From positions 6,990,322 through 7,054,321 of the forward strand of contig NZ_CP036273.1 of assembly GCF_007747215.1 (NCBI RefSeq): a stretch of 64,000 nt of DNA, written 5' to 3'. The translations under genes were made by a program, and so were the position numbers. The notes below the pieces were generated by a model. That model worked only from the letters and a program-made list of their open reading frames with translations, was not told the origin of the DNA and did no database searches. The DNA comes from Urbifossiella limnaea. GTDB lineage: Bacteria > Planctomycetota > Planctomycetia > Gemmatales > Gemmataceae. Positions 10,409 through 38,795 of this stretch are shown in pieces (position 1 is the first letter of the stretch; each line of letters opens with the position of its first letter).

Positions 10409-11165
10409 AGGAGACAAAGGGTAACAAGACCCGACGGTGGCCGGCGCCCACGGGAAGGGGCTACGGGCTGGATTAGTCACCCGCCGGTCGCCGGCTAGGT
10501 CTGACGCAGGCTGTGCAGACCAGTCGAACTGCGACACGGGCGCCCGCCGCCGCACCCAGCGGTCGTGCCGGACCGTGCCCCGGGTCGGCCGCCGGCACCG
10601 CCCGGATCGCCGGCTCCGGCTCCGTTGGCCCGCGAGGCCTTCACCAGCACCCGCGTCGGCGCAGCCCGCGAGGTTATAGCCGCCGTGGCCAGCACCTACA
10701 GCCCCCCGGCCAGGTCGCCAAGCGATCGCCCGCGCTGGGCCACTCCACCGCCCCCGGATTTCAGCGCAAGGAGCCGTCTCAACGCCTGGAGTCGGCGTCT
10801 CCGTCGCGGAGAAAGCCGGCCAACGACGACTCGCCGGTACCGCCTGCCCTTCCGCCGCGACACGTCGTGCGATTTTTCATGTCCGGTTTTCCGGGCGAAT
10901 CTCGATTGACTCCTCGCAGCTCCTGGGAGGCACCCGCTGAGGACAGGCGAGACGGAGAACGACTGATAGCGGCTTGGCCACTCCGCCGCCCGTTCCGTCA
11001 CAATCCGGACATTCCGCACAACCGGTCATTGACAACCATTTCTTGCCAGGTGAGAATCCATCCCCAATCACGGTATGCCTTCGGCACGTACACACACCGA
11101 ATCTGGCGTGCGCGCGTGTCAGTTTGTCATCCGGACACGACTCTTCTGAGCCAGGGATCGCCCCC
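10409..11165. other. Divergent intergenic region between kinase operon and toxin gene
   Basis: These 757 bases separate two divergent transcription units. The toxin reading frame is open upstream to 10974, but the N-terminal LEDR motif lies at the expected distance from the ATG at 11166, so the upstream part is treated as non-coding. A possible sigma-70-like promoter is listed separately. No RNA gene or other repeat was recognised. Confidence 0.5.
11029..11057 (+). promoter_or_regulatory. Possible sigma-70-like promoter for the toxin gene
   Basis: TTGACA at 11029-11034 is a perfect -35 hexamer. After a 17-base spacer, GAGAAT at 11052-11057 matches four of six bases of TATAAT. It sits about 110 bases upstream of the chosen toxin start, in a locally AT-richer stretch. 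Confidence 0.35.
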
Positions 11166-14100: not shown

Positions 14101-17100
14101 CGGGCCGGGGTGGGATGCACACCACCCACGGCACGTCCGGCGGAACCTGGATCACGGACCAGGTGTACGGCACGCTGTCGGTCCTCAACACCGACGGCAG
14201 CCTGATGAACGACCCGGACGTGTACGCGCGGTACTCGATGTACCTCAACCACCGGACGGCCGCGGACTACGTGCCGTGGCAAACCCTTGATGTCCGGTAC
14301 GAACTGGACGCGGCGACCAGGGAGTGGCTCGGGAACGGGGTGACGGTGCAGTACCGGGTGACCGTGGCGGTCTACGAAATCAACGGGAGCAGCATCCAGC
14401 TCAAGGCGGACGAGTGCCAGTTCCTGAGCTACACCCCGTCCAACGGGTCGGGGGAAGTGACCTTCCATCTGCCCGGCCTGCCCCCCGGGCGGCAGGCTCT
14501 GGTCCAGGTGTCGGCCGACCTACTCCGGGACGGTCAGCTGTGGAAGACCACCTCGCGGTTCGACTTCGTGCGGGACTTCCAGGGGGACTTCACGCGGGCT
14601 CAAACCCTGTACCAACCCCAGGTCGTCTACATCACCGGGGCGCCCCCGCCGGACACCGGCGGGGGGGTGCTGGACACCCTGGCCATCCTTCGCGAGCTGG
14701 CCGGCCGGTTCGGCCCGAAGGTGAACGCGCTGGTCGCCGCCTTCACGTCCCCGTCCGGGATCACGACCGCTCTCGATAACCTGAAGGACGGGTTCGTCGG
14801 GGCGATGACCGAGCTCAAGGACAAGTTGGCCAGCCCGCAGGGGCTGCTCCGGAAGTTGATGACCGCGGTCCTCGGCCCGACGGCCGTGCAGAGCCTGCAA
14901 AACATCACGGAGTGGAACTGGGACAACCTCTTGCCGGCCCTCCTCGAGTACGCCGGTCTGACCTGGGACCACGTGTACGACGTGGCCCGGCGACAGCTCG
15001 GCGCGGGTAACCTCGCCGCCCTGGAGCGGGTAGCCGGGTGGTTCGAGGGGATCGACCCGGCCGCCGGCCCGGCCGGCCTCCGGACCCTGTTCGACCGGAT
15101 CAAGAATGACCCGGTGATGGCGGGCCTGGACCTCGGCGTGTTGAACGCGGACGTCCTGCTCGACCAGGTCAAGGGGGCGATTCAGTCCAAGGTCCAGGAG
15201 GCGATGCTGCGCGCGGCCGCCCAGGCGGTGGCGAAGTTCGTGCCGGGGGCGGGGGCGTTCATCTCTCTGTACAACGCCCTGGGGTGGCTGAACGCGAACA
15301 AGGACGGCGTCCTCGCGGCCGTCGACGCCCTCCTCGACGCCCTGGCCGCGGCGGCCGTGCCGGGCAACTCCGCGGCGGTGAAGACGAAGCTGGTGGAGAT
15401 GTTCGACCTGGCGATGGACAAGGCGCTGAGCTTCGCCGGGAGCCAGCTCGGCGTCGGGAACATGGGGGAGCGGATCAAGAGCGGGCTGGCGTTCGTCCCA
15501 TCCCGGGTGGACGCCGCCCTGATCGCGGCCTTCGCCCGGGTGGCGGCGGCCGTGCCGCCGGGGACGCCGGCCCCGGGCACGGCCGCCGCCCCCGGCGGCA
15601 CGGCCGGCGGGATGTACGACGGGCGGATGGCGGCGGCGGTGACGGTGAGCGTGGACGGCAAGACCTACCACCTGTGGGTGGCCCAGGAGACGGGCCGGAC
15701 GGCCGGGGCGCGGGCGATCAAGGTGAAGCTCGTCCAGGTGTCGCCGGGCGGGAACGGGCTGGTGCTCGTTCTTGACCCGAAGATGTTCCTCGGCAAGCGC
15801 GCCCCGGCCGCGCTGAACGCGCTGGTGGCGGCCGCGGTGAAGCTCCAGAAGGACACGCTGCCGGCCCCCGGGGCGCCGCCGGCGGCGGTGCCGATGGCGA
15901 CGCTGCGCGCCCTCCAGCAGCAGGTGACGGCGGCCCTGGGGCGGGTGAAGGACGCCATCCAGGCCCACGCCTGCGTGGCCCTGGGGACGGGCTGCTTCGC
16001 CGCCGGGACGAAGCTGCTGACCCGCGCCGGGTGGCGGGCCGTTGAGGACATCCGGGCCGGGGATGAGGTGCTGGCGCAGGGCGAGTACGACCCGGCGGGC
16101 GTGGCCGAGTGGAAGGCGGTGGAGGAGACGTTCCGGCGGACGGACGTGGTGCTGCACGTCCACGCCGGCGGGCGGGTGATCCGGACGACGCCGGAGCACC
16201 CGTTCTACGTGGCCGGGGAGGGGTGGACAGCAGCGGGGGCGCTGCGCGGGGGCGACCGGCTGGCGACGCTGGGTGGGGCGTGGGTGGGTGTGGAGGAGGT
16301 GTTCGAGACTGGCGTGTACGAGGCGGTGTACAACCTGCGGGTGGCCGACCACCACACGTACTTCGTGGGGGACGACCACTGGGGCTTCGCCGTCTGGGCC
16401 CACAACACCTACACCATTGATTTCCTGAGCGGGTACAAGGTCGTCGAGCAGGTGAAGAGTCAGCCCGGCATCACCGGGCAACTGACTCAAGCTCAGGAGG
16501 TTACGATCATCCAGACGATACGCGGGGAGGGGAAGTACGGAGCGATGGGCCAAGTGGAGAACAGTCGGGCGGCGGTGGTCGATCTCGTTCAGTTCGAGAT
16601 GTGGTTCGACCGCGTCAGCGCCCCAGCTAACTACACACCCGATCTCGCGGGTGTGCTCAAGGGCCACTTCAAACTGCCGTGCGTCAAGACGGCGCATGAC
16701 ATCGAAGAGAAGAACATCAAGGACTTCTCGGGTCCGCGGCCGATGGTGCCAGCCGCCCCTTCATACCCGGCGGTCGAAATCACCAAGTGGAAGGGACTGA
16801 TCTACTCCTCGACGTGGACCTCGCCGTGGTCGACGGCGGTCAACATCCCGGTCCGACACGGTCTCTCGGACGCCGACGCTCTGAACAGGGGATATGTCGC
16901 CGCCCGTGCCACCTTCAATGGCGATGTCCATGGGCATCACATCGTGTTCAAGGAAGGGGCAGACGCGGGGCCAACGACAGAACGGCAGGCATCGAAGCCA
17001 GTCGCTGCGGAGGCCCGGGACATACTGCTCTACTACGGCATCAACCCGTACTGGGATAAGGAGAACCTCGCGTACGCGCCCGCCCACAGGCACTGGTTGG

Positions 17101-17243
17101 CGTCGATCGAGGACATCCGTGACCGACTCAAGGCAGCGTACCTACAGCACGGTTCGAGGGGGGACATCGTCACCATCCTCCAAGACGTGGCACAACGGTA
17201 CATCAACGAGAGCCTCCGCGGCATGAGGAACTACGTCCCATGA
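11166..17243 (+). CDS. Giant secreted polymorphic toxin: LEDR N-terminus, FG-GAP repeats, HINT domain, HHI nuclease-like tip
   Basis: This is a 2025-residue protein. The N-terminus has the GVEGLEDRVVPT motif found on large planctomycete exported proteins. FG-GAP/VCBS-like repeats fill about 90-378 (for example DVDADGVPDLI). An Ig-like region (about 385-480), a proline-run linker (about 491-505), PKD-like segments (to about 790) and a long helical region follow. A HINT domain runs from Cys1610 (TGCFAAGTKLL) to His1746-Asn1747, the pretoxin processing module of polymorphic toxins. The 278-residue tip contains HGHHIVFKEG (His1924-His1925) and later ENLAYAPAHRHW, resembling the AHH/HNH-type nuclease toxins. 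The stop overlaps the start of the ankyrin-SUFU gene. Processing after Asn1747 would release the tip. Nuclease activity is inferred, not shown. Confidence 0.85.
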   Translation: MPLPTRYTRFARLLALREWVATRLTRRSQPAPRPRLGVEGLEDRVVPTGRPLPYPVLYAGTGEGPPPIVRAFDAITGALTFERLVADPGFAGGVRVATADFTADGFPDVVTALGPGGAPRVQVLDGKTGDPIPGPLGDLTAYVPWFHGGVSVAAADVDADGVPDLITAAGAGGGPHVRVFRGADGRQLASFFAFEPDFAGGVSIAAADLTGDGRADLVVGAGPGGGPRVRVLDLATGRPAPGPLGDFFAFDAAGRAGVAVGADWKAGDVDADGTPDLVVGSGPGIAGEVKVFSGRTGASLGAFSPFGPGMTAGVRVALCYADDDEFADVVAATGPGRTPAEVRVFHGATGVAAALPTAAFLPFGPGAAGGVNLAASNDPVVPSMSQPTISPGAPAAGAPVTITVTLSPASGQPAPTGAVTFTAVPALGGAPVVLGSGVPLTPYGDGSLATLTATAPAAGAYSVTAAYGGDVVYSNLTTAGWLMVSGGTSPPPPPPPPPGGTSPPPAAAGIHVEADADPVVKGEPVWFTLTSDDTVPDYTAVEWDFDYQYGTFTVDATGPDPEAETAFTTAGARTVAARLVLVAGAPQVYSLAVNVRYPAPVVTVPEEPVTTTAMLPTPMAVEVDAERPIDHLDWYVSFEGEEEWLDPSVHEAPEHYVFPWYGDWSVRVVATDVDGNVGENWFAVTADDFTPVEEVSPVPTVAEGTPSVFTIREVDPDTWDTLTVYADWGEGKGFEQVDPDTFTVDTATDTISFPHTYAKDGTFTAVLRVENDSGTHTDVSAAATVTNVWPSWAINAGTQIAHKATSNQDVWAIRPGQTLLFDDVRAAGRRVWNRQPVGVPSTATPWTANPPTPGVDYTPAPPESAMTDALDVKYHWRISLDSSSHVTGELPQGSQLDEEIVTQTPYLSLPYYRAGVIYHVQAWATDSGARPAAADAEPGLAPVLPPGTPPPPAPDRGSAPQRREFLKVIVDDPAGYANPGRGGMHTTHGTSGGTWITDQVYGTLSVLNTDGSLMNDPDVYARYSMYLNHRTAADYVPWQTLDVRYELDAATREWLGNGVTVQYRVTVAVYEINGSSIQLKADECQFLSYTPSNGSGEVTFHLPGLPPGRQALVQVSADLLRDGQLWKTTSRFDFVRDFQGDFTRAQTLYQPQVVYITGAPPPDTGGGVLDTLAILRELAGRFGPKVNALVAAFTSPSGITTALDNLKDGFVGAMTELKDKLASPQGLLRKLMTAVLGPTAVQSLQNITEWNWDNLLPALLEYAGLTWDHVYDVARRQLGAGNLAALERVAGWFEGIDPAAGPAGLRTLFDRIKNDPVMAGLDLGVLNADVLLDQVKGAIQSKVQEAMLRAAAQAVAKFVPGAGAFISLYNALGWLNANKDGVLAAVDALLDALAAAAVPGNSAAVKTKLVEMFDLAMDKALSFAGSQLGVGNMGERIKSGLAFVPSRVDAALIAAFARVAAAVPPGTPAPGTAAAPGGTAGGMYDGRMAAAVTVSVDGKTYHLWVAQETGRTAGARAIKVKLVQVSPGGNGLVLVLDPKMFLGKRAPAALNALVAAAVKLQKDTLPAPGAPPAAVPMATLRALQQQVTAALGRVKDAIQAHACVALGTGCFAAGTKLLTRAGWRAVEDIRAGDEVLAQGEYDPAGVAEWKAVEETFRRTDVVLHVHAGGRVIRTTPEHPFYVAGEGWTAAGALRGGDRLATLGGAWVGVEEVFETGVYEAVYNLRVADHHTYFVGDDHWGFAVWAHNTYTIDFLSGYKVVEQVKSQPGITGQLTQAQEVTIIQTIRGEGKYGAMGQVENSRAAVVDLVQFEMWFDRVSAPANYTPDLAGVLKGHFKLPCVKTAHDIEEKNIKDFSGPRPMVPAAPSYPAVEITKWKGLIYSSTWTSPWSTAVNIPVRHGLSDADALNRGYVAARATFNGDVHGHHIVFKEGADAGPTTERQASKPVAAEARDILLYYGINPYWDKENLAYAPAHRHWLASIEDIRDRLKAAYLQHGSRGDIVTILQDVAQRYINESLRGMRNYVP

Positions 17244-18370
17244 CGACCGAGCAAGATCTGTTGATCTGGTTCGGCGGGTTCCGCCGGACGAACGACCTGG
17301 AGGGTATTGCCCGTCTACTCGACGACCACCCCGAGATGGTGACATCGCCCCAGTGCGCCTCCACGATGATTCACTCCGCCGCACGGGATGGCAACACGGC
17401 ACTCGTCGCATTGCTGGTCGGGCGGGGCGTGGATGTCAACATGCCTGACGACCCGCAGACGCCTGACCGGCCGATCGGAACGGCTAGTCGGTGCAACCGC
17501 CTCGACACCGTCCGTTGGCTCCTTGAGCACGGATCGGATGTCAACTACGGGTGGGACGGAGATTTCGACACGTGTGTTCCGCTGTCGGCGGCCATCTATT
17601 TGGGGAACTTCGAGATGGTGCGCCTTTTGGTTGAGGCCGGGGCGTACCTGAACGTTCTCGACCGGACCAACCGGACCCCCTTGGGGTGGGCCGGCGGCCA
17701 GCCGGAGATCGCCGCCTACCTACGGTCGAAGGGTGCGCTGGAGCCACACGAGGTGCCGGGGTACGTCCCCCGGCCACTACCCGACCCGATACCAGAGCAT
17801 ATCGACCGGGCCGTCGGCCCGGTCCGGCCGAACTCCTGGCTCCCGATCGTCCCCGATGACGCCAACCCGGTCCCGGTCCGCGCGGCCGACGGGGACGGCG
17901 TGGTCTGCCTGTTCACCGCCGGCATGTCGGCCCGCCCCCAGCCCCCCGGCCCCGGCGACGGGTACGACCGCGCCGAACTCGCGTGCTTCCTCGCCGGCTG
18001 GCCCGACGACCCGGCCGACTGGACCGACGCGCACCTGTGGCCCGTCCACTGGCTCCGCCGGCTGGCCGCCTACCCGTGGCAGACCGGCGTCGGGTACGGC
18101 GGCCCGGTCGCCGTCGTCGCCAACGGCGACCCGCCCGCCCCCCTCGGCCCCGGCACGGCGCTGACGTGCTGGCTGCTCCTGGCCGACAAGGCACCGCTGG
18201 AGCGGGCGTACCTGGCCGACGGCACCGAGGTCGTGTTCTACACCGCCGTCCCGATCCACACGGCCGAGCGCAACTACGAGCGGGCCCACGGGACCGAGGC
18301 GCTGCTGGAGCGCTTCGCCGATGCGGGCGTGCCGGACCACATCGACCCCGCCCGGCCGAGCGTCGTCTGA
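17240..18370 (+). CDS. Ankyrin-SUFU protein, likely immunity protein for the upstream toxin
   Basis: This is a 376-residue protein. Residues about 10-175 form ankyrin-type repeats (MIHSAARDGNTALVALLVGR, then TVRWLLEHGSDVNYG, then MVRLLVEAGAYLNV). Residues about 195-376 match the SUFU fold: DRAELACFLAGWP, WLRRLAAYPW, and EVVFYTAVPIHTAERNY with GTEALLERF. Ankyrin and SUFU families are both established immunity-protein types in polymorphic toxin loci (Aravind and colleagues). The ATG overlaps the toxin TGA by 4 bases (ATGA), giving coupled expression as expected of an immunity gene. It has no signal peptide, consistent with cytoplasmic protection. Having both folds in one protein is less usual. 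Base composition changes between the ankyrin and SUFU halves. Confidence 0.82.
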   Translation: MTTEQDLLIWFGGFRRTNDLEGIARLLDDHPEMVTSPQCASTMIHSAARDGNTALVALLVGRGVDVNMPDDPQTPDRPIGTASRCNRLDTVRWLLEHGSDVNYGWDGDFDTCVPLSAAIYLGNFEMVRLLVEAGAYLNVLDRTNRTPLGWAGGQPEIAAYLRSKGALEPHEVPGYVPRPLPDPIPEHIDRAVGPVRPNSWLPIVPDDANPVPVRAADGDGVVCLFTAGMSARPQPPGPGDGYDRAELACFLAGWPDDPADWTDAHLWPVHWLRRLAAYPWQTGVGYGGPVAVVANGDPPAPLGPGTALTCWLLLADKAPLERAYLADGTEVVFYTAVPIHTAERNYERAHGTEALLERFADAGVPDHIDPARPSVV

Positions 18371-23087: not shown

Positions 23088-24929
23088 TCAGCCGCTGCCG
23101 GAGAAGCGGCCGACGGTGACGGTCATCTGCCCGCCGGGCTCCTGCCAACTCCGGACCTGTCGGACGTACACCGCGAGCCCGGACACGCCTTCGACGCCGG
23201 GGAATTCGACGTACATCCGCCCGGTGCGGACGGCGTCCGGGGTGCGGAACCGGATGCCGCTGGCCGACAGGTCCACCGACTTGCCGGTGATCGGCGCCCC
23301 GACCACCCCGTCCTGGTACAGCGGGTATACCCGGACCGGCCGCTCGACCCGGGTCCGCGGGTGGGCGCGGCGCTCCTCGAGGTTCTGCAACACACCCTTC
23401 ACGTCGGTCAAGATCGCCGGCAGGTCGGACATGGACAGGAGGGTGAACACGGAGTTCGGCACCCCGCACACCGCGCCGGAGGCGATGTACTCGGCCGACG
23501 GCGGGACCGGGCGGCGGACGGTCACCTCGAAACCCGTCCGCGGACGGGGCGGCGCCTTCGGGTCCGGCTTGCCCCCCTTCGGCGGGTCGGGCGGGGCTTC
23601 CCGCCACAACACCACCCGGACCGGGTCCTGCTGCTTGACCTCCATCCCCCACCGCTCGGCCACCATTCCGAGCTTGAGCGGCACCATCCCGGCGGGGAGT
23701 GTCGACAGGAAGTTGCAGGTGGTGTCCGGGTCGTCGTGCGCGGCCAGGGTGTCCGGGTCGTCGGCCGCGGCCCGGAGAACGGCTTCGACGAACTCGGGGG
23801 TGGTGCCAGCCGGTTCGTGCTGCCGTTCGCCGGGGACACCGTGGAACTCGGCCACCGGCAGGACAGCCCGGAGCCCGGCGAACGGGTCGGCCGGCTTCGG
23901 CGGCTCGGGCTCGCGGCGGCGGGACAGCCGGCCGGACCCGGGCCGGCCCGGGGTGCCGGACGGCGACCGGCTGTTGGACGGCGCCGGCTCGGGCAGGGGT
24001 GGCGTAACCGCCAGTACGGGCGGGCCGTTCGGGATCGTCGCCTCGTCCGTCTCGGCCGGCGAGGCGGCGGCGGGGGGCAGGGTGATCGCCTCGGGCGGCA
24101 GGCCGGTGGTCTCGGCCAGGGCGGCGACGAACGCCGAGCACGACGGGAACCGCTCGCCGGGGTTCTTCGCCAGCGCCCGCCCGACCGCCGCCCGGTCGGC
24201 GTACGGGACCGCGGCAAGGTCCGGCGGGGTGGTCGCGTGTTGCAGCATGAGCTGCTCGGCGGTGCGGCCGGGGTACGGGAACACGCCGGTCGCCAGTTCG
24301 ACGTAAACGAGGGCGAGGCTGTACTGGTCCGACCGCGGGTCGACGGCCCCGCGGAGGACCTCGGGGGAGGTGTACCGCGGGGTGAACCCGCGGCGGTCGT
24401 CGGCCCCGTCCCCGGCCCGGTGGACGCGGCGGACGAGCCCGTAGTCGCCGACCTTCAGGTGCCCGGCAACGAGGAACAGGTTCTCCGGCTTCACGTCGAG
24501 GTGTTGGAGGCCGTAGCGGCTGCCGATCATGTCCAGCGCCTCGGCCGCGTCGCCGAGGTAGTTCAGGAGCTCGTCCCGCGGGATGCCCGGGTGGCCGTCG
24601 GCCCGGCACGCCTTGAACCGGTCGGCCAGCTGACAGTCGGCCAACTCCATCACGATGACGAGTTCGGCGCCGACGAGTTCAACCCGCTCGAGGGAGAGGA
24701 GGAACGGGTGACGGATGGTTTTGATCTGCTCGACGGCGCCCCGCTCCTGGCGGAACTGGTCGCCGGCGGTGGACACGAACTTGATCGCCTTCGGGAGCCC
24801 GCCGGGCGCCTCACACTTCCAGACCTCGCCGAACCCACCCCGGCCGAGCGGCTGGAGCAGGCGGTAGCCCGGCAACGGCTCGGCGCCGGGGTACTTCTCG
24901 CAAATCCCCGGGTGGTACGTGGTGGTCAT
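23088..24929 (-). CDS. Ser/Thr protein kinase with C-terminal PilZ domain
   Basis: From the ATG at 24929 this is 613 residues. The kinase domain spans about 22-290: GRGGFGEVWKC loop, Lys50, catalytic HLDVKPEN (143-150, HRD Arg replaced by Leu), DYG at 162-164 instead of DFG, and SPEVLRG. A proline-rich linker and an unrecognised region lead to a C-terminal PilZ-like domain (about 519-613) with the RRAHPRTR arginine motif and DLSASG, the two c-di-GMP-contact motifs of PilZ domains. There is no membrane span. The fusion suggests phosphorylation modulated by c-di-GMP, or the reverse. An in-frame GTG at 24968 would add 13 residues. It has no operon partner. Confidence 0.88.
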   Translation of the reverse strand: MTTTYHPGICEKYPGAEPLPGYRLLQPLGRGGFGEVWKCEAPGGLPKAIKFVSTAGDQFRQERGAVEQIKTIRHPFLLSLERVELVGAELVIVMELADCQLADRFKACRADGHPGIPRDELLNYLGDAAEALDMIGSRYGLQHLDVKPENLFLVAGHLKVGDYGLVRRVHRAGDGADDRRGFTPRYTSPEVLRGAVDPRSDQYSLALVYVELATGVFPYPGRTAEQLMLQHATTPPDLAAVPYADRAAVGRALAKNPGERFPSCSAFVAALAETTGLPPEAITLPPAAASPAETDEATIPNGPPVLAVTPPLPEPAPSNSRSPSGTPGRPGSGRLSRRREPEPPKPADPFAGLRAVLPVAEFHGVPGERQHEPAGTTPEFVEAVLRAAADDPDTLAAHDDPDTTCNFLSTLPAGMVPLKLGMVAERWGMEVKQQDPVRVVLWREAPPDPPKGGKPDPKAPPRPRTGFEVTVRRPVPPSAEYIASGAVCGVPNSVFTLLSMSDLPAILTDVKGVLQNLEERRAHPRTRVERPVRVYPLYQDGVVGAPITGKSVDLSASGIRFRTPDAVRTGRMYVEFPGVEGVSGLAVYVRQVRSWQEPGGQMTVTVGRFSGSG

Positions 24930-25321
24930 CACGTCGCGGAGGTTGCCGGGCGGGACGGCGGAACTCACTGTTCGGCCGTGGTCGGTGGGCTATCGCCCAG
25001 TACCTGGGCATGCTCTCAGGAACACTAGCACGGGGTTTGCGGCAGGGCCAACGCTTCTTGAACTGCTGCCGTGGTACTGGTTTTGCCCGTACACCGGCGG
25101 GAACCCGGTGACGGCCTCGCTGCTGGAGCAGGACACGGCGAAAGGGAGCATCAACGCCAGGCGGCCAAGTGCCGCCCTGGACACGAAGTCCCTGGAGCGC
25201 GTCCTACAGGGCTTCAAGGCGAATTAACACTCCCAGAGATCCCCTGCCCACGGGGGGAGACCGGTCGACAGCGACGCACCCCGGTCGACCTGCGGCTGCC
25301 ACCCAGAATCCCGCCACCGCA
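24930..25321. other. Gene-free spacer between kinase-PilZ and BNR genes
   Basis: These 392 bases include the presumed promoter of the minus-strand kinase. A plus-strand open stretch ending at 25227 (FCPYTGGNPVTASLLEQD) resembles nothing recognised and has no proper start; it may be decayed coding sequence. No RNA gene or hairpin terminator was seen. Confidence 0.4.
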
Positions 25322-29901: not shown

Positions 29902-32900
29902 ATGGCGTCGGACACGCGCTTCGCCGTCGGCGTCGTCCACCGCCGGGTCGGGCCGCGGGCCGTCCTCGCCGAGCCGCTGTTCTTCCCGGAAGTCGCTCGC
30001 CTCGCCGCCGACCCCGACGCGGCCGCCGCGATGATCCGCCACGACTTCGCCGTCCGCCTGCCGAAGCTCGACACCCGCGAGCTGTTCCGCCGCCGCCGCG
30101 CCACCACCGCCCGGCTCGTCGCCTTCACCGTGGACGTGGCCCCGCCGCGCAAGACGGACCTGTGGCGCACGCCCGTGGCGCTGAAGCTCCAGGCCGTCGC
30201 GTGGGAGCAGGCCGGGTTCGTCGTCGCCCGCATCCCGGCGCTCGGCGTCGAGGTCATCGCCGCGCCGAAGGACGACCTGCCGGCGCTGCTAGCGCGCGAG
30301 GCGCTGGCCGCGCTGCGGCGCGCCGAGCTGACGAAGACCCTGAAGGCCCTCGCCGGCGTCGCCACCGGCGGCCTGCGGCTCGACTGGCTCGACGTGTCCG
30401 CGAGGCTGCCGTCGCTCAAGGAGCGGGCCGCCCGCGGCGACGCCGAGCGGCCGAAAAAGACGGTGCTTCAGACCGTGGCGTCGGTCGTGCGTCCGGAGGC
30501 TGAAGACGCCGCGTTCGAGGCCGAGGAGGTGGTGGCGCAGCTGGCCGAGGCGCTGGCCGCGAAGCCGCCGCAGAGCGTCCTGCTCGTCGGCCCCAGCGGC
30601 GTCGGCAAGAGCGCGGCGTTCGGCGAACTCGTGCGTCGCGCCGCGGCCTACCGCCTCGGCGCGACGCCGTTCTACCGCACCACCGGCAGCCGGCTCGTCG
30701 CCGGGCAGACGGGCTTCGGCATGTGGGAGGAGCGGTGCCAGGAGTTGATCAAGGAGGCGGCCAAGCTCCGGGCCGTTCTCCACGTCGGCAGCCTGACCGA
30801 ACTGATGGACGTGGGCAAGAGCAATTGCAACCCCACCGGGATCGCCACGTTCCTGCGCCCCGCCATCGCCCGCGGCGAGCTCCTGTGCGTGGCCGAGGCG
30901 ACGCCCGAGCAACTACCGCTGATCGAGAAGGAAGACCCGCAGCTGACCGACGCGTTCCGCCAAATCACGGTCGAGGAGCCCGGCCCGGACCGCGGCCGGC
31001 GTATCCTCCGGCAGTTCGCCGACGCCGACCGCCGCCGCGAGCCGACGCCGGAGGCGCTGGCGGCAATCGACCGGCTGCACCGCCGCTACGCCACGTACTC
31101 GGCGTACCCCGGCCGGCCGCTCCGCTTCCTCGACCGGCTGCGGCGCGACGGCCCGCCGCGCACGCCGATCGGCGAGGGCGAAGTCTTCACCGGGTTCGGC
31201 CGCGAGACCGGGCTGCCCGCCGCGCTGCTCGACCCCGCCGTGCCGCTCGACCCGGCCGCCACGCGCGACTGGTTCGCCGACCGTGTCGTCGGCCAGCCGG
31301 AAGCCGTGAGCCTCGTCGCCGACCTGCTCGCCACGGTGAAGGCCGGCCTGGCGCGGCCGAACCGGCCGGTCGCGTCGCTGCTGTTCGTCGGCCCCACGGG
31401 CGTCGGCAAGACGGAGATGGCGAAGGCGCTGGCCGAGTTCCTGTTCGGCTCGGCCGACCGGCTGACGCGGTTCGACATGAGCGAGTACGCCGACCCGGTG
31501 GCCGTGCGGCGGCTCGTCGGCTCGGCGTTCAACACCGAAGGGCTGCTGACCGCGGCCGTGCGCGAGCAGCCGTTCTGCGTGCTGCTGCTCGACGAAGTCG
31601 AGAAGGCCGACGCCTCCGCGTTCGACCTGCTGTTGCAGGCACTCGGCGAGGCCCGACTCACCGACGCCGGCGGGCGGCTCGCCGACTTCCGCAACGCCGT
31701 CGTCATCCTCACGTCGAACCTGGGCGCCGAGTCGTTCCGGGCCGGGTCGGCGGGCTTCGGCGCCGACCGCCCCACGGCCGCGGGCGCGGCGGCGCACTTC
31801 ACCCGTGCCGTGGAGCAGGCGCTGCGGCCGGAGATGGTGAACCGGCTCGACCGCGTCGTGCCGTTCGCCCCGCTCGGGCCGGACGTGGTGCGGCGCATCG
31901 CCGACCGCGAGTGGGCGAAGGTGCTGGCCCGCGACGGCCTCCGCTTCCGCAACGTCCGCGTGACCACCGGGGAGGGGTTGCTCGACCGCATCGCCGCGGT
32001 CGGGTTCGACCCGCGGTACGGCGCCCGGCCGCTGAAGCGGGCGATGGAGCGCGACCTCCTCGCCCCGCTGGCCCGGCAGATGAACCGCCACCCCGGCGAC
32101 GCGCCGCTGTCCGTCGCGGTGGGCGTGGCGGCCGGCGACATCGCCGTGACCGTCCGACCGGTGCCGGGGGCGAAGGGGGGCGGCGAGCCCGCGAGCCCCG
32201 TCGGTCGGCAGGCGGCGCAGGCCCAGGAGCGGCGCCGCTGGCACCAGCTGCTCGCGGAATCGACGGCGGTGCGCGACGTGGAGAACGAGGTGGTTCAGCT
32301 CGCCCAGGTGGAGCAGCGGGTGCGGTCGCGGCAGGCCCGGGGGAAGCCGCAGCGGCCGGGCGACGCCGCGGCGCTGGCCCGCCTCGGCCGGCTGCGCGAG
32401 CTGGCCGTCGAGGTGCGGCGGCAGCGGGTCGCCGCGGAGGAGGTGGAGGACGCGGCGGTGGTCGCCTTCCACGCCGACGCCGCCGACCCGGCGCTGGCGC
32501 CGCGCCTGGCCGCCGGCGCCGCCGACTGGGACGCGCTGCTGTTCCGCCTGTACGCGGCGAGCCGGCCGGGGGCGGACCGCGTCACGCTGGTGCTGTACTC
32601 GGAGCACCGCGGTCACCTCGCGGCGCTGGCCGACGCCTACCGTTCCGAGGCCGAGCGCCACCGCATCCGCGCCGAGGGGCGGGTGTTCGCCGCGGTGACG
32701 GCCGAGGAGGCGCGGCTGGTCGAGGCGAGGGAGAAGCCGCCCAAGTTCCCCAAAACCGAGGGCGACGAGCCGGTGACGGCGTGGGGCGAGAGGTGGCTGT
32801 GGGAGAAGGCCGGGTCGGCGGTGCGGGTGGTGATGCGCGCCGAGCCGCGGACCGACGAGCTTCCCGACGGCGCGATCGGCGTGGCGTTGGAGCTGACCGG

Positions 32901-33222
32901 CCCCGCGGCGGACCTGCGGTTCGCGGCCGAGGCCGGGCTGCACGAGTTCGTCGGCACGCCCGCGGAGGAGGGGAACCCCGACGTGCTGGTGCGGGCGACG
33001 GGCGAGAAGCTGATGGAGTACCGGCCGCCGGTGGCGATGGTCCGCCGCGGGGCGGTGAAGGCGGACGAGACGCGCCGGGTGTACGACCGCGGCAAGGGCC
33101 GCGTGGACGACGCTGTGACCGGCGAGGCGTTCGAGGGGCTGTGGGGCGAGCTGGCGGCGCTGCTGCCGCCGGTGCTGGCGGCGAACGCGCGGCATCGGTT
33201 GCGAGTGGTGGTGCTGGAATAA
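29902..33222 (+). CDS. Clp-like double AAA+ ATPase, paralog 1
   Basis: This is a 1106-residue protein. The N-terminal region (about 1-200) is not the Clp N-domain. D1 has Walker A GPSGVGKS at 230-237 and a pore-loop-like QTGFGMWEER, but the Walker B site reads LHVGSLTEL without the acidic pair, and the arginine fingers are replaced (LTDAFRQ). D2 has Walker A GPTGVGKTE from 497, LLLDEVEKAD (Asp564), NRLDR and sensor-2 YGARPLKR, but lacks the GYVG pore loop (VGSAFNTEGL). The C-terminal 330 residues are coiled-coil followed by a region weakly like a release-factor PCRF domain. It is the first gene of a three-gene set. It is probably a protein unfoldase or remodeller; there is no ClpP-binding evidence. 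Confidence 0.85.
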   Translation: MASDTRFAVGVVHRRVGPRAVLAEPLFFPEVARLAADPDAAAAMIRHDFAVRLPKLDTRELFRRRRATTARLVAFTVDVAPPRKTDLWRTPVALKLQAVAWEQAGFVVARIPALGVEVIAAPKDDLPALLAREALAALRRAELTKTLKALAGVATGGLRLDWLDVSARLPSLKERAARGDAERPKKTVLQTVASVVRPEAEDAAFEAEEVVAQLAEALAAKPPQSVLLVGPSGVGKSAAFGELVRRAAAYRLGATPFYRTTGSRLVAGQTGFGMWEERCQELIKEAAKLRAVLHVGSLTELMDVGKSNCNPTGIATFLRPAIARGELLCVAEATPEQLPLIEKEDPQLTDAFRQITVEEPGPDRGRRILRQFADADRRREPTPEALAAIDRLHRRYATYSAYPGRPLRFLDRLRRDGPPRTPIGEGEVFTGFGRETGLPAALLDPAVPLDPAATRDWFADRVVGQPEAVSLVADLLATVKAGLARPNRPVASLLFVGPTGVGKTEMAKALAEFLFGSADRLTRFDMSEYADPVAVRRLVGSAFNTEGLLTAAVREQPFCVLLLDEVEKADASAFDLLLQALGEARLTDAGGRLADFRNAVVILTSNLGAESFRAGSAGFGADRPTAAGAAAHFTRAVEQALRPEMVNRLDRVVPFAPLGPDVVRRIADREWAKVLARDGLRFRNVRVTTGEGLLDRIAAVGFDPRYGARPLKRAMERDLLAPLARQMNRHPGDAPLSVAVGVAAGDIAVTVRPVPGAKGGGEPASPVGRQAAQAQERRRWHQLLAESTAVRDVENEVVQLAQVEQRVRSRQARGKPQRPGDAAALARLGRLRELAVEVRRQRVAAEEVEDAAVVAFHADAADPALAPRLAAGAADWDALLFRLYAASRPGADRVTLVLYSEHRGHLAALADAYRSEAERHRIRAEGRVFAAVTAEEARLVEAREKPPKFPKTEGDEPVTAWGERWLWEKAGSAVRVVMRAEPRTDELPDGAIGVALELTGPAADLRFAAEAGLHEFVGTPAEEGNPDVLVRATGEKLMEYRPPVAMVRRGAVKADETRRVYDRGKGRVDDAVTGEAFEGLWGELAALLPPVLAANARHRLRVVVLE

Positions 33223-33224
33223 CC

Positions 33225-33263
33225 GGCTCGAGGCGTTCGCCGCGAGCGGCGGAGCCTCGAGCC
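33225..33263. repeat. Inverted repeat between Clp-like paralogs 1 and 2
   Basis: Outer arms ggctcgaggc (33225-33234) and gcctcgagcc (33254-33263) are perfectly complementary, with an inner cgccgc/gcggcg pair. It begins 2 bases after the stop codon, with no T-run. It could stabilise mRNA ends or adjust expression within the operon. Confidence 0.6.
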
Positions 33264-33281
33264 CCGGACGGGGTTCCTCCC

Positions 33282-36200
33282 ATGCGGTTCCGCGTTCCCA
33301 TCTACGTCGCCGAATCGAAGACCGGGTTCGCCGCCCGGCCGCTGTTCGTCCCGCGCCCGGCCCGCACCGACACCAACCTCAACCGCCTCCTCACCCGGCT
33401 CGCCGGCGACGTCGTCCGGGCGATCGAGCTCGACGCCCGCGCCGACCGGCAGGACGTGGCCGCCCGCTGGGCGTTCGCGCCGCCGGTCGCGCAGCACCGC
33501 CTCGCCCTGGAAGTCGAGCTGCGCCGCCGCAAGTTCCGCGGCAAGTTCCTGTTCGTCACCTTCGAGCACCTCGGCCGGCGGCTCGCGCTCACCCCGGCGG
33601 TGCCGGACGTGTGGTTCGAGGTCGCCCGCGGCGAGGCGCTCGCCGACCGCGCCAAGGCCGCGCTCGACGAACACTGGCGCGCCGCCGAGCGCGACGCCGA
33701 CGAGCCGGACGACGTGAACCCCGTCGCCGACGCGCTGACCGGCAAGGCGTGGGTGCAGGTGATGGACGTGTCGGCGCGCGTCCCGGCGGTGGTGAAGGCG
33801 GCCGACCCGCTGGCGTTTCTGATGCTCGGCGGCGCGGGCGAGCCCGACGGGGCGAGCGAGCTGCGCCGCGTCGGCCGGTGCCTCGACTGGCTCTACCCCG
33901 ACGAGCTCGACCGCGCCGCCTTCCGCGCCGCGGAGGTCGCCGAGCTGTCGCGCCTGCTGGCGGCACCGGACCGCCGGCCGGTGCTACTCGTCGGCCCCCG
34001 GCAGGTCGGCAAGACGGCGGTCGTTCACGAGTGCGCCTTCAACCGCGTCGCGGAGCGGAAGCACGTCCACGTGCAGCGCGGCAACGTGTGGCTCGTGTCG
34101 CCGCAGCGGCTGATTTCCGGCATGAGCTACGTCGGCCAGTGGGAGGCCCGGCTGCTGGCGATCCTGCGGCACGCCCGCAAGCGCGACCACGTCCTCCTGT
34201 TCGACGACCTGATCGGCCTGTTCCAGGCCGGCGTGACGAGCCAGGGCACCCTGAGCGCCGCGAACCTGCTCAAGCCGTACCTCGAGGACCGCGCCGTGCG
34301 CGTCCTCGGCGAGATCACGCCGGACGGGCTGCGCGTCCTGCGCGAGCGCGACCGCGGGTTCGCCGACCTGTTCCACGTCCTGCCCGTCCGCGAGCCGACC
34401 GACGCCGACACGCTCCGCACCCTGGTCGGCGTCCAGCGCCGCCTCGAAGGGAAGCACGACTGCCTGTTCGGCCTCGACGTGCTCCCCGCGGTGATCGACG
34501 CCCAGCGCCGCTACGACCGCACCGCCGCCTTCCCCGGGAAAGGTGCGTCCGTGCTCACCCGCCTCGCGGCCCGCGCCGCGAAGCCGAAGCCCGAGCAGTG
34601 CGTGCCGGACGCGAAGGACCGGCCGCGCATCACCCGCGACGACGTGCTCGCGGACGTCGTCGCCCGCAGCGGCCTGGCGCTGGCGTTCCTCGACCCCAAG
34701 GCCCGGCTCGACCGCGACGACGTGCGCGACCAGCTCGCCAGGCAGGTGGTCGGGCAGCCGGAGGCCGCTGAGGCGCTGGCCGACGTGGTGAGCATCGCCA
34801 AGGCCCGGCTGAACGACCCCGGCCGGCCGCTGGCCGCGTTCCTCCTCGTCGGCCCGACCGGCGTCGGCAAGACGGAAACGGCGAAGGCCGCGGCGCGCGT
34901 CCTGTTCGGCACCGCCGACCGGCTCGTGCGGTTCGACCTGAACGAGTTCAACCACCCCGGCGCGGCCGCGCGGTTGGTCGGCACCTTTGCCCGTCCGGAA
35001 GGGCTCCTCACCGCCGCGATCCGCCGCCAGCCGTTCGCCGTGGTGCTGCTCGACGAGGTGGAGAAGGCCGACCCCGAGGTGTTCGACCTGCTGCTGCAAC
35101 TGCTCGGCGAGGGGCGGCTGACCGACGCCCTCGGCCGCACCGCCGACTTCACCAACGCCGTCGTCATCCTCACGTCGAACATCGGCGTCCGCGAGGCGGA
35201 GGGGAAGCTGGGGTTCGGCGCCGCCGACGACCCGCGGGCGTTCGTGCGGGCGGCCGAACGGTTCTTCCGGCCCGAGTTCTTCAACCGCCTCGACCGCGTG
35301 GTGCCGTTCGGGAAGCTGAGCCGCGCCGACCTGGGGGCGGTGGCGCGGCGGCTGGTGGACGGCGTGCTGGGGCGGGCCGGGTTCGCGCAGCGCGGCTGCG
35401 CCCTGGACGTGACGCCCGCCGCCGTCGAGCGGGTGATCGACGCCGGGTACGATCCGGCGCTCGGGGCGCGGGCCATGAAGCGCGCCGTGGAGCGCGAACT
35501 GACGCGCCCCGCGGCTGCGGCGCTGGCGAAGCTGGCGCCCGGCGAGCTGACCGTGGTGAGCGTCCGCGCCGAGGCGGGCGCGCTGGCGGTGGACGTGACC
35601 GCCCCGGGCTGGGCAGAACGGCTTCCCGCGGCGGAACCGCTGCCCGCCGCCGACCGCGCCAGGGCGGCGAGGCTGGCGCTGGAGCGGATCGAGGGGCGCG
35701 TCGCGGCGCTGCGGCCGGGGGCGGGGGTGGTGGCGGGGCGCGTCACGGCCGAGCAGGAGCGCTACTTCGCGCTGAAAGACCAGGCCCGGACGGTCGCGGC
35801 CGACCTGGAGCGGGTCGAGGCGCGCGGCGAGCGCGCCTTCAACGTCGTGGCGCGGCAGCCGGAGGCGGTCGGCCGCAAGAACCGCTACCGGTCGCTCAAG
35901 CGGACGCGGCTCGGCGTCAACCACGAGGCCCAGCAGCCGTACCGTTCGTTCCTGTCGGCGGTGTCGATGGAGGAGGCGGTCCACGAGCTGATGCTGGACG
36001 CCGAGCCGGCCGACGCCGACGGCGAGCTGTTCGAACTGGAGAACCGGCTGGCGCTGCTGGCGCTCACGGCCTCCGCCGCGCCCGACGACCGGCCGACGTT
36101 CCTGTGGCTGCGCGGCTTCGGCGGCGGCGACGGCGCCTCGGCCCCGGTCGCGCGGTTCTTCATGAGTGCGTGGGCGGCGGGGCTGGGCGTCGAGGTGGTG

Positions 36201-36509
36201 AGTAGCCGGCCGGCGGGGCTCCCGGTTACGGACGTGGTCTTCCAGGTGAAGGGTGTCGCGGCCCGGGAACTGGCGCAGACAGAAGTCGGCACGCACCTGG
36301 TGCTGCCGACGCACGGCGGTCCGTGGCCGGTCCGCGTGGACGTGCTCGACGCCTGGCCGGCCGCGGCGCCGGCGGGGTTCGGCCCGGTCGTGCGGGTGTA
36401 CCCCGAGGGGCAGCCGGTGTTCGACGTGCGCACCGGGCTGGTCGTGCCGCCGCCGTACGCGGCGGACCAGCTGCGGGCGTTCACCCTGACGGCATTGCCG
36501 CGCGCGTGA
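33282..36509 (+). CDS. Clp-like double AAA+ ATPase, paralog 2, with PCRF-like C-terminus
   Basis: This is a 1075-residue protein. D1 has Walker A GPRQVGKT from 238, pore loop GMSYVGQWEAR and Walker B LLFDDLIGL (Asp where Clp proteins have Glu); the arginine fingers are absent (FADLFHV). D2 has Walker A GPTGVGKTE from 524, LLLDEVEKAD and FRPEFFNRLD, with the GYVG loop replaced (VGTFARPEGL). After a helical segment, residues about 905-1010 (FELENRLALLALTA, then FLWLRGFGGGDGASAPVARF) resemble the PCRF domain of peptide-chain release factors; the GGQ domain is absent. The start is 59 bases after paralog 1. A ribosome or nascent-chain link is possible but speculative. Confidence 0.85.
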   Translation: MRFRVPIYVAESKTGFAARPLFVPRPARTDTNLNRLLTRLAGDVVRAIELDARADRQDVAARWAFAPPVAQHRLALEVELRRRKFRGKFLFVTFEHLGRRLALTPAVPDVWFEVARGEALADRAKAALDEHWRAAERDADEPDDVNPVADALTGKAWVQVMDVSARVPAVVKAADPLAFLMLGGAGEPDGASELRRVGRCLDWLYPDELDRAAFRAAEVAELSRLLAAPDRRPVLLVGPRQVGKTAVVHECAFNRVAERKHVHVQRGNVWLVSPQRLISGMSYVGQWEARLLAILRHARKRDHVLLFDDLIGLFQAGVTSQGTLSAANLLKPYLEDRAVRVLGEITPDGLRVLRERDRGFADLFHVLPVREPTDADTLRTLVGVQRRLEGKHDCLFGLDVLPAVIDAQRRYDRTAAFPGKGASVLTRLAARAAKPKPEQCVPDAKDRPRITRDDVLADVVARSGLALAFLDPKARLDRDDVRDQLARQVVGQPEAAEALADVVSIAKARLNDPGRPLAAFLLVGPTGVGKTETAKAAARVLFGTADRLVRFDLNEFNHPGAAARLVGTFARPEGLLTAAIRRQPFAVVLLDEVEKADPEVFDLLLQLLGEGRLTDALGRTADFTNAVVILTSNIGVREAEGKLGFGAADDPRAFVRAAERFFRPEFFNRLDRVVPFGKLSRADLGAVARRLVDGVLGRAGFAQRGCALDVTPAAVERVIDAGYDPALGARAMKRAVERELTRPAAAALAKLAPGELTVVSVRAEAGALAVDVTAPGWAERLPAAEPLPAADRARAARLALERIEGRVAALRPGAGVVAGRVTAEQERYFALKDQARTVAADLERVEARGERAFNVVARQPEAVGRKNRYRSLKRTRLGVNHEAQQPYRSFLSAVSMEEAVHELMLDAEPADADGELFELENRLALLALTASAAPDDRPTFLWLRGFGGGDGASAPVARFFMSAWAAGLGVEVVSSRPAGLPVTDVVFQVKGVAARELAQTEVGTHLVLPTHGGPWPVRVDVLDAWPAAAPAGFGPVVRVYPEGQPVFDVRTGLVVPPPYAADQLRAFTLTALPRA

Positions 36510-36545
36510 GGCTTGCACCTCCGCGAGCGGCGGGAGAGGGAAGTC

Positions 36546-38795
36546 GTGCCCACCGTCCGCTACCCCGTCGTCGTCTACCGCGACCCCGCCGGGGGGTGCC
36601 ACGCCGCCGCGCTCGACCACGGCGCCGTCGGGTTCGGGTCGTCCGCCGCCGACGCGAAGGCCGACCTGCGCGACTTCCTGACGTGGGAGCACCGCCACCG
36701 GCCGTGGGTCGCGCCGCCCGACTTCCTCGACCCCGAGCTGCGCTGGGTCCGCGTCGCCGTCCGCCCCGAGTACCGCACCGGCGACCGCCTCCACCCGAGC
36801 GCCGAGGCCGTGGACCTGCGCGTCCTCGTCGTCACCGCGGTGCGTGCGAGCGGGCAGCCGGCCGCCGACCTGCCGCAGCTCGGCTACCGCTTCGACTACC
36901 CCGACGCGAAGGAGCTGCCGGACCTCGTCCGCCGGTACACCCTGCAGAAGCTCGAAGGGCTGACGCCCGCGCAGGTCGCCGGCTTCTTCCCGCCCGCGGA
37001 GGCCGACCTGGACACGCTCCCCGTCCGCGTCCGCGAGGCCGGCGCCGCCGTGAAGGAAGCGCCCGAGACGCTGGCCCGCGTCGCCGAGCCGCTCGGCGAC
37101 CGCGCCGCCCGCAAGGGCTTCGCCCGGGCCTGGGGTCGCGAGCCGGAAGTCGCCGCACTGGCGAAGACCCTGCACGACGAGACGGCGAGCGTGCTGCTGG
37201 TCGGCGACGCGGGCGTCGGCAAGTCCACGCTGCTGGCCGACGCGGTGAAGGACGCCGAGCGGCGCGGCGGGAAGCGGCGGTTCTGGCTCACGTCGGCCGG
37301 CCGGCTGGTGGCCGGGATGAAGTACCTCGGCCAGTGGGAGGAGCGCGTCGAGCAGGTCGTCGCCGACCTCGGCGAGATCGGCGGCGTGCTGTGCGTCGAT
37401 CGGTTGCTGGACCTGGTGCGCCGCGGCGGCACCGGCCCCGGCGACAGCATCGCTGCGTTCCTGGCGCCGTACCTGGCGCGCGGGGAAGTGCGCGTCGCGG
37501 CCGAGGCCACGCCCGCGGAGTTGGACGCCTGCCGCCGGCTGCTGCCGGGGTTCGCCGACCTGTTCCAGGTGGTGCCGGTCCGAGCGTTCGAGCCGGCCGC
37601 GGCGCTGGCCGTCATCGACAAGCAGCTCGCCACCGCCGCGTCCGGGCCGGGGTTGAACGTCGGCCGCGGGACGGGCGAGAGCATCGTCCGGCTGTTCCGC
37701 CGCTTCCAGCCGTACGCGCCGTTCCCCGGCCCGGCGGCCGGCTTCGCCCGCGAGCTGGTCGATGCCACCGCACGGAAGGGGGTGAAGGAGGTGACGGCCG
37801 ACGCCGCCGTGACCCGCTTCCGCGCCCGCACCGGCCTGCCGGACCTGCTGCTGCGCGACGAACGCACCCTCGATCGCGTCGACGTGCTGGGGTGGTTCAC
37901 CGGCCGCGTCATCGACCAGCCGGCGGCGTGCGCCGCGGCCGCGGACGTGGTGACGGCGATCAAGGCGGGCGTGACCGACCCCGGCCGGCCGCCGGCGGTG
38001 CTGCTGTTCTGCGGGCCGACGGGCGTGGGGAAGACCGAGCTGGCGAAGGCGCTCGCCGAGTACCTGTACGGCCACGGCGAGGACGCGGCGAAGCGGCCCG
38101 GCGAGGCGCCGCGGCTGGTGCGCCTCGACATGAGTGAGTACGGCGGGTTCGACGCCGCGGCGCGCCTCCTCGGCCCGCCGCACGGCGAGCCCGGCGAGCT
38201 GGTGAAGCGGGTGCGCCGCGAGCCGTTCTGCGTGCTGCTGCTGGACGAGGTGGAGAAGGCCAGTGCCGAGGTGTTCGACGCGCTGATGGGCGTCTTCGAC
38301 GAGGGCCGGCTGACGGACCAGTACGGCCGCGTCACCGACTTCCGCAGCGCCGTGATCGTGATGACCTCGAACCTCGGCGCCGGCCGCGGCGGGGCGGTGG
38401 GGTTCGGCCCGTCGGGCGGCGTGAACTACACCGGGGCGGCGATGGCGTTCTTCCGCCCCGAGTTTTTCAACCGCCTCGACGCGGTGGTGACGTTCGACCC
38501 GCTCGGCCCGGCCGCCGTGGAGCGGATCGCGTGCCGGGAACTGGCCGCGGTGGCGCGGCGCGACGGCCTCGCCGGCGTGACCGTGACGTGGACGGACCGG
38601 CTGGTGGCGCACCTCGCGGCTGTCGGGTTCGACGCCCGCTACGGGGCGCGGCCGTTGCAGCGGACGGTGGAGCGCGAGGTGGTGGCGCCGCTGGCCCGGT
38701 GGCTGCTGGCGAACCCCGCCGCCGCGGGCCGCGCGGTCGTCGCCGACCACACCGCGGGCGGCGTGACGTTCGCGGCCGGTCCGTACAATCGGTGA
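36546..38795 (+). CDS. Clp-like double AAA+ ATPase, paralog 3
   Basis: This 749-residue protein, from the GTG at 36546, follows gggagagggaag. The N-terminus (YPVVVYRDPAGGCHAAAL, then SSAADAKADLRDFL) resembles a HicB-like fold. D1 has Walker A GDAGVGKS from 220, pore loop GMKYLGQWEER very close to the ClpB/ClpA form, and Walker B LCVDRLLDL with Arg in place of Glu. D2 has Walker A GPTGVGKTE from 490, LLLDEVEKAS, FFRPEFFNRLD and sensor-2 YGARPLQR; the GYVG loop is missing (LGPPHGEPGEL). It lacks the C-terminal extension of the other two. Close spacing (36 bases) implies one operon and perhaps one mixed ring. Confidence 0.87.
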   Translation: MPTVRYPVVVYRDPAGGCHAAALDHGAVGFGSSAADAKADLRDFLTWEHRHRPWVAPPDFLDPELRWVRVAVRPEYRTGDRLHPSAEAVDLRVLVVTAVRASGQPAADLPQLGYRFDYPDAKELPDLVRRYTLQKLEGLTPAQVAGFFPPAEADLDTLPVRVREAGAAVKEAPETLARVAEPLGDRAARKGFARAWGREPEVAALAKTLHDETASVLLVGDAGVGKSTLLADAVKDAERRGGKRRFWLTSAGRLVAGMKYLGQWEERVEQVVADLGEIGGVLCVDRLLDLVRRGGTGPGDSIAAFLAPYLARGEVRVAAEATPAELDACRRLLPGFADLFQVVPVRAFEPAAALAVIDKQLATAASGPGLNVGRGTGESIVRLFRRFQPYAPFPGPAAGFARELVDATARKGVKEVTADAAVTRFRARTGLPDLLLRDERTLDRVDVLGWFTGRVIDQPAACAAAADVVTAIKAGVTDPGRPPAVLLFCGPTGVGKTELAKALAEYLYGHGEDAAKRPGEAPRLVRLDMSEYGGFDAAARLLGPPHGEPGELVKRVRREPFCVLLLDEVEKASAEVFDALMGVFDEGRLTDQYGRVTDFRSAVIVMTSNLGAGRGGAVGFGPSGGVNYTGAAMAFFRPEFFNRLDAVVTFDPLGPAAVERIACRELAAVARRDGLAGVTVTWTDRLVAHLAAVGFDARYGARPLQRTVEREVVAPLARWLLANPAAAGRAVVADHTAGGVTFAAGPYNR

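Follow-up and report, generated by a model that had tools for sequence, protein, structure and literature searches.

To our knowledge, all bacterial Hsp100 proteins described to date are homo-hexamers, and we know of none that carries a release-factor fold. In ClpX, ClpC and ClpA, the tripeptide that docks on ClpP is located between sensor 1 and the arginine-finger box. Here we analyzed a stretch of 64,000 nucleotides (hereafter the window) contained in the 7.8 Mb single-contig genome of Urbifossiella limnaea. A preliminary description of this DNA had reported three tandem Clp-like double-AAA+ genes. The open reading frames were confirmed in place, with all the motifs quoted for them, and are called A, B and C below (Table 1). 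Sequence comparison identifies their products as double-AAA+ relatives of the Hsp100/Clp proteins, as the Pfam families AAA_2 and ClpB_D2-small matched each of them. The GTG start of C agrees with the 'MPTxRY' beginning of its orthologues. Against the NCBIfam equivalog models for ClpA, ClpB, ClpV, ClpK and ClpG, the best scores were 279–321 bits, below cut-offs of about 885 bits or more. The host genome also encodes an ordinary ClpB, a second Clp, two ClpPs and normal RF1 and RF2, which rules out that the trio replaces the normal release factors or chaperones.

Table 1. Coordinates of the three genes and their domains in the window, with the evidence for each assignment where given
Feature	Position	Strand	Size and start	Description	Evidence
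Gene A	29902..33222	+	1106 aa, ATG	N-domain, apparently inactive D1, predicted active D2, RF2-like C-terminal module	
A N-domain	29902..30486	+	residues 1-195	Two-lobed alpha/beta, HicB-like in part; no Clp N-domain	
A D1	30487..31266	+		Walker A GPSGVGKS, pore loop GQTGFGMW, HVGSL in place of Walker B, arginine fingers lost	
A D2	31267..32106	+		ATPase motifs complete, GYVG pore loop deleted, GF-type loop at 31750-31761	
A C-terminal module	32107..33219	+		Remote RF2 homologue, GGQ domain missing	Profile vs PDB RF2; hhalign vs RF2 96%
Gene B	33282..36509	+	1075 aa, ATG	N-domain, apparently inactive D1, predicted active D2, RF2-like C-terminal module	
B N-domain	33282..33911	+		Homologous to A and C N-domains	hhalign 97% to A, 86% to C
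B D1	33912..34721	+		Walker A GPRQVGKT, pore loop GMSYVGQW, Walker B FDDL (E to D), arginine fingers lost	
B D2	34722..35543	+		ATPase motifs complete, GYVG deleted, LGFG loop at 35208-35219	
B C-terminal module	35544..36506	+		RF2-like fold without GGQ domain	Profile, AlphaFold2, Foldseek, structural alignment
Gene C	36546..38795	+	749 aa, GTG	N-domain, apparently inactive D1, predicted active D2, no C-terminal module	
C N-domain	36546..37145	+		Homologous to A N-domain	hhalign 97% to A
C D1	37146..37925	+		Walker A GDAGVGKS, pore loop GMKYLGQW, Walker B CVDRL, arginine fingers lost	
C D2	37926..38792	+		ATPase motifs complete, GYVG deleted, VGFG loop at 38397-38408	

Other genes of the window were recorded as well. 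The region 10974-18370 encodes a 2089-aa protein, in which FG-GAP, Ig-like, PKD and pretoxin-HINT domains are combined, and directly after it an ankyrin-SUFU protein; the pair resembles a polymorphic toxin and its immunity protein. A long WD40 beta-propeller array is fused to a Ser/Thr protein kinase at 4091-7528, and another Ser/Thr protein kinase, with a weak PilZ match at its C-terminus, lies at 23088-24968.

The first AAA+ domain (D1) had been described as keeping Walker A and an aromatic pore loop while losing the Walker B glutamate and the arginine fingers. Motif conservation was scored in orthologue alignments of 61 A, 76 B and 48 C rows. The Walker A G-K was conserved in 98–100% of rows, and the pore loop retained its aromatic residue together with a near-invariant G-x-W, which bears out the first part of the description. 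No double arginine finger was present in any of the three alignments. The loss at Walker B is real as well, yet it differs by subunit and calls for a refinement. The motif reads G-[N/S/P] in A, where Asp is replaced by Gly in 100% of the rows, D-D in B (97% and 99%) and [E/D]-[N/S/R] in C. Both acidic residues are lost in A only; B has Asp at both positions, and C mostly keeps the first acid. Conservation over this many rows indicates that the lesions are genuine rather than noise in the sequence. Recent decay or an assembly artefact is ruled out, as the D1 lesion of every subunit is fixed across phyla and the trio occurs in named isolates.

In the second AAA+ domain (D2), Walker A, the Walker B 'DE', the sensor-1 N, the R-P-E...N-R box and the GAR sensor 2 were conserved at 92–100% (48–76 orthologues per subunit), and D2 is predicted to be catalytically competent in A, B and C. 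The GYVG-type pore loop is deleted in all three and in a sister family, D, that is introduced below. When A is aligned with the host's own ClpB, the stretch reads 'RLVGSAFNTEGLLT' vs 'RLVGAPPGYVGYDEGGQLT', which confirms the earlier observation of a D2 that keeps its catalytic motifs without GYVG. Canonical Walker B or GYVG residues were not found elsewhere in the alignment. A D1 that has aromatic loops but is predicted not to hydrolyze ATP, next to a complete but loop-less D2, supports the earlier proposal that D1 may provide grip and D2 power.

Another conserved element of D2 is a [LIV]GF loop between sensor 1 and the arginine-finger box (G in 95–100% and F in 82–92% of the A, B and C alignments). 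It is present in all four families and in none of 16 ClpBs from the same bacterial family. The conserved loop suggests that unfolded protein may, optionally, be handed over to ClpP. Against this, the 35–40 kDa tail on the D2 side of A and B could be a hindrance to ClpP docking. The preliminary description had missed the loop, as well as the A and B tails and the HEAT–Clp–RF2 family to which we now turn.

A and B carry C-terminal extensions of ~320–370 residues, and C has no tail. Pfam searches with whole proteins overlooked the nature of these tails, which came to light only through profile methods and a fourth family, D. This is a single-gene family with D1, D2 and a tail, plus HEAT repeats in many members. 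Its C-terminal region matched the Pfam family PCRF at 3e-14, all 5 full proteins scoring above the cut-off, and phmmer aligned the D tail over almost the full length of RF2 (5.6e-24). Using family profiles, RF2 was the best PDB match for both the A tail (E=1.5e-7, in three collinear segments that skip most of the GGQ domain) and the B tail (E=2.7e-7). Profile–profile comparison with RF2 by hhalign gave 96% for the A tail and 94% for the B tail, against <1% for the A and B N-domains used as controls. The B tail also matched PCRF, below the cut-off (E=0.0018). Its AlphaFold2 model (pLDDT 86) retrieved RF1 or RF2 as all of the leading Foldseek matches and aligned with E. coli RF2 (1gqe) over 231 residues, with a Z of 13.7 and an rmsd of 5.2. 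We conclude from the profiles, and for B also from the predicted fold, that the A and B tails are remote homologues of the class I release factor RF2. The structural match of B and the phmmer match of D show that the helical domain and the codon-recognition superdomain of this fold are retained.

Neither A nor B retains the GGQ domain in its tail, and both tails are without GGQ and SPF, the elements that release factors use on the ribosome. GGQ and SPF are likewise missing from every D tail aligned with RF2. Having lost GGQ and the stop-codon motif, which in class I release factors is SPF or PxT, the tails are predicted to be unable to terminate translation. They are poorly conserved, with a mean column identity of 17–21%; within these fast-diverging sequences an E-x-G-x-H motif is nearly invariant, and its role is probably structural. 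Net charge of the tails did not discriminate, since the RF1 and RF2 chains are acidic too.

Retention of the tails points to a function in docking, for which the leading candidate is the ribosome or a termination partner. Alternatively, the RF2-derived tails may be a protein scaffold only, which sets the subunit order or binds an unrelated adaptor and whose link to translation has been lost. The loss of GGQ and SPF, the absent GGQ domain of A and B and the nearly invariant, probably structural motif all agree with such a scaffold. Moreover, the low tail conservation is unlike that of an rRNA-contacting surface. Such rapid change makes a conserved rRNA contact less likely, so that a pure scaffold is nearly as likely as docking, and we regard it as a serious possibility that falls somewhat short of an even chance. 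It accounts less well for the retention of the module across phyla and for the RF2-like shape, which is full in D, helical domain 1 included, and recognizable in B.

The statement that none of the proteins has a Clp N-domain stands: no Clp_N was among the Pfam matches listed for A, B and C, and the A N-domain was modeled by AlphaFold2 as an alpha/beta structure (pLDDT 91). The similarity of this model to HicB (6g1c; Z 7.4, 82 residues aligned) is near background, and the profile match to 2yzt has an E of 0.00097, so that the HicB-like likeness is suggestive only. The two-lobed alpha/beta N-domain is common to A, B and C (hhalign 86–97% among the three). Matches of the A N-domain to the GGQ domain of release factors are weak (Z 4–5), at background level, and were given no weight.

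The trio occurs in about one-sixth of the 61 Gemmataceae genomes searched. In a phylum-wide search with a D1 profile, family members scored at least 180 bits, vs less than ~170 bits for the ClpB/ClpC D1 background. Scanning of 84,980 species genomes yielded 80 loci with genes for B relatives, in Planctomycetota, Acidobacteriota, Verrucomicrobiota, Riflebacteria, Sericytochromatia and Lysobacterales, isolates included. Named isolates with the trio include Zavarzinella formosa DSM 19928, Neorhodopirellula pilleata, Sulfidibacter corallicola and Acanthopleuribacter pedis. The trio is present in planctomycetes, the group in which the preliminary description proposed to trace it, and its spread goes beyond them, which that description had missed. 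The order A-B-C is fixed, with a gap of at most 300 nt between A and B in 57 of 62 loci and between B and C in 49 of 51. Of 13 genomes without a neighboring C that were checked, 11 encode it at another site, as does G034, and two gave no C match. In three genomes (G036, G131 and G183), A, B and C lie on three separate contigs, all present. The recurrence of the three-gene set across phyla, unlinked cases included, establishes its conservation. The distance matrices of A, B and C correlate at 0.94–0.96 over 37 loci, a value that shared species history would also be expected to give.

Individual loci showed variations. A protein-kinase-like gene stands between A and B in G034 (locus L047, 8975-10831), and L153 has a similar gap. 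The trio of G021 looks damaged, with B apparently cut after about residue 659 and followed by a C fragment (L053, 6770-9176, and L147). In three genomes (L048, L049 and L054), A is near a gene of a fatty-acid cluster that resembles beta-hydroxyacyl-ACP dehydratase, identified by eye from sequence; this proximity probably reflects a shared ancestral neighborhood. Two A. pedis scaffolds (L167 and L168) have an identical trio layout, either as two copies or as an assembly duplicate.

Among the genes around these loci, only the trio itself recurs widely, and other recurring neighbors are confined to small groups of related loci. This bears on a different reading, in which the proteins are not unfoldases but an AAA+ switch or conflict (defence) system, with D2 hydrolysis powering conformational signaling. 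A patchy distribution over several phyla, the missing D2 pore loop and weak PADLOC matches to single-AAA+ candidates would fit this. However, the aromatic D1 pore loops are conserved, the PADLOC matches are restricted to the D2 ATPase core, and no conserved effector, mobile-element or defence neighbor recurs; we consider this reading improbable. Anti-phage defence in particular was rejected on the generic nature of that D2 core and the lack of a recurring defence or mobile neighbor.

In a tree of the D1–D2 core, A, B, C and D each form their own clade, A+B+C is sister to D (support 0.75), and the four families are set apart from ClpB and ClpC (0.985). The simplest history would be an ancestral Clp–RF2 fusion with a dead D1, which gave rise to the single-gene line D and, by triplication, to the trio, with C losing its tail. 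One genome (G274) that has a D gene also encodes an A-like protein outside the A clade, beside a B relative (L213), possibly a pre-triplication form.

The subunit-specific lesions and the co-occurrence of the three genes favor a mixed ring over three independent ones, and the operon structure points the same way. The mixed hexamer suggested in the preliminary description is thereby favored, while it continues to be an inference. The trio could instead form three separate homo-hexameric unfoldases, co-expressed and acting on different substrates, with no common ring. Each subunit could work alone, as every D2 keeps all catalytic motifs, arginine finger and sensor 2 included, and sister family D is a single-gene system. 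Such independence is hard to reconcile with a near-obligate co-occurrence that persists even when the genes are unlinked, with the operon and with a distinct fixed D1 lesion in each subunit, and we hold separate homo-hexamers to be somewhat unlikely.

The reading that we prefer, on which we stand evenly divided, is that one Hsp100-type AAA+ machine is built from A, B and C as its dedicated subunits, with a D2 motor, a D1 grip and RF2 tails that could serve for docking. It would most likely assemble as a hetero-hexamer, or as hexamers mixed in composition. The D2 ring would be the sole ATP-hydrolyzing ring, its strokes pulling the polypeptide, and the D1 ring would bind nucleotide without hydrolysis and hold the polypeptide with its aromatic pore loops. 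The N-domains would probably recruit substrate, the A and B tails may dock the machine on the ribosome or another translation-termination partner, and the [LIV]GF loop may allow an optional transfer of unfolded protein to ClpP. A more specific version, a hetero-hexameric unfoldase that acts on stalled or terminating ribosomes via its dead RF2-derived tails, remodels proteins and optionally feeds ClpP, appears rather unlikely to us in its entirety. If true, it would be a ribosome-coupled quality-control machine distinct from tmRNA, ArfA/B and RQC. The RF2 tails would tie protein unfolding to translation termination, unlike any described system. With one of its rings dead, a three-subunit Hsp100 would also offer a direct test of a gripping vs a pulling ring, since evolution has already separated the two roles, and the single-gene family with HEAT, D1, D2 and RF2 parts represents a simpler version for study.

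No Hsp100–release-factor fusion or three-subunit Hsp100 was found in family-model libraries or the open-access literature, and the literature result, covering open-access work, is not proof of absence. The relevant passages of release-factor reviews and papers on AAA+ conflict systems (PMC6514570, PMC7159879 and PMC8195603) make no mention of such a fusion. The earlier statement that no described Clp system matches held in all of these searches, and the families constitute an Hsp100 clade with a new subunit organization and a new appended domain.

The trio shares with ClpB/Hsp104, ClpA and ClpC the tandem AAA+ D1/D2 arrangement, the Clp-type D2 small domain, a catalytically complete D2 and the aromatic D1 pore loop. 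It differs from them in the lost D1 Walker B and arginine fingers, the deleted D2 GYVG, the lack of a Clp N-domain and a shorter D1–D2 core, about 540 residues vs 670 in ClpBs of the same family, as well as in its three dedicated subunits, the RF2-derived tails of A and B and its separate clade. With the ClpX/ClpC-type partners of ClpP it has in common a [LIV]GF loop where the ClpP-docking loop sits; here, ClpP binding is predicted from that loop, and an additional C-terminal domain lies on the docking-loop face. The tails of A, B and D are homologous to RF2 by sequence profile and fold, whereas in these families the module is fused to an Hsp100 core and has lost GGQ and SPF, with the GGQ domain missing in A and B.
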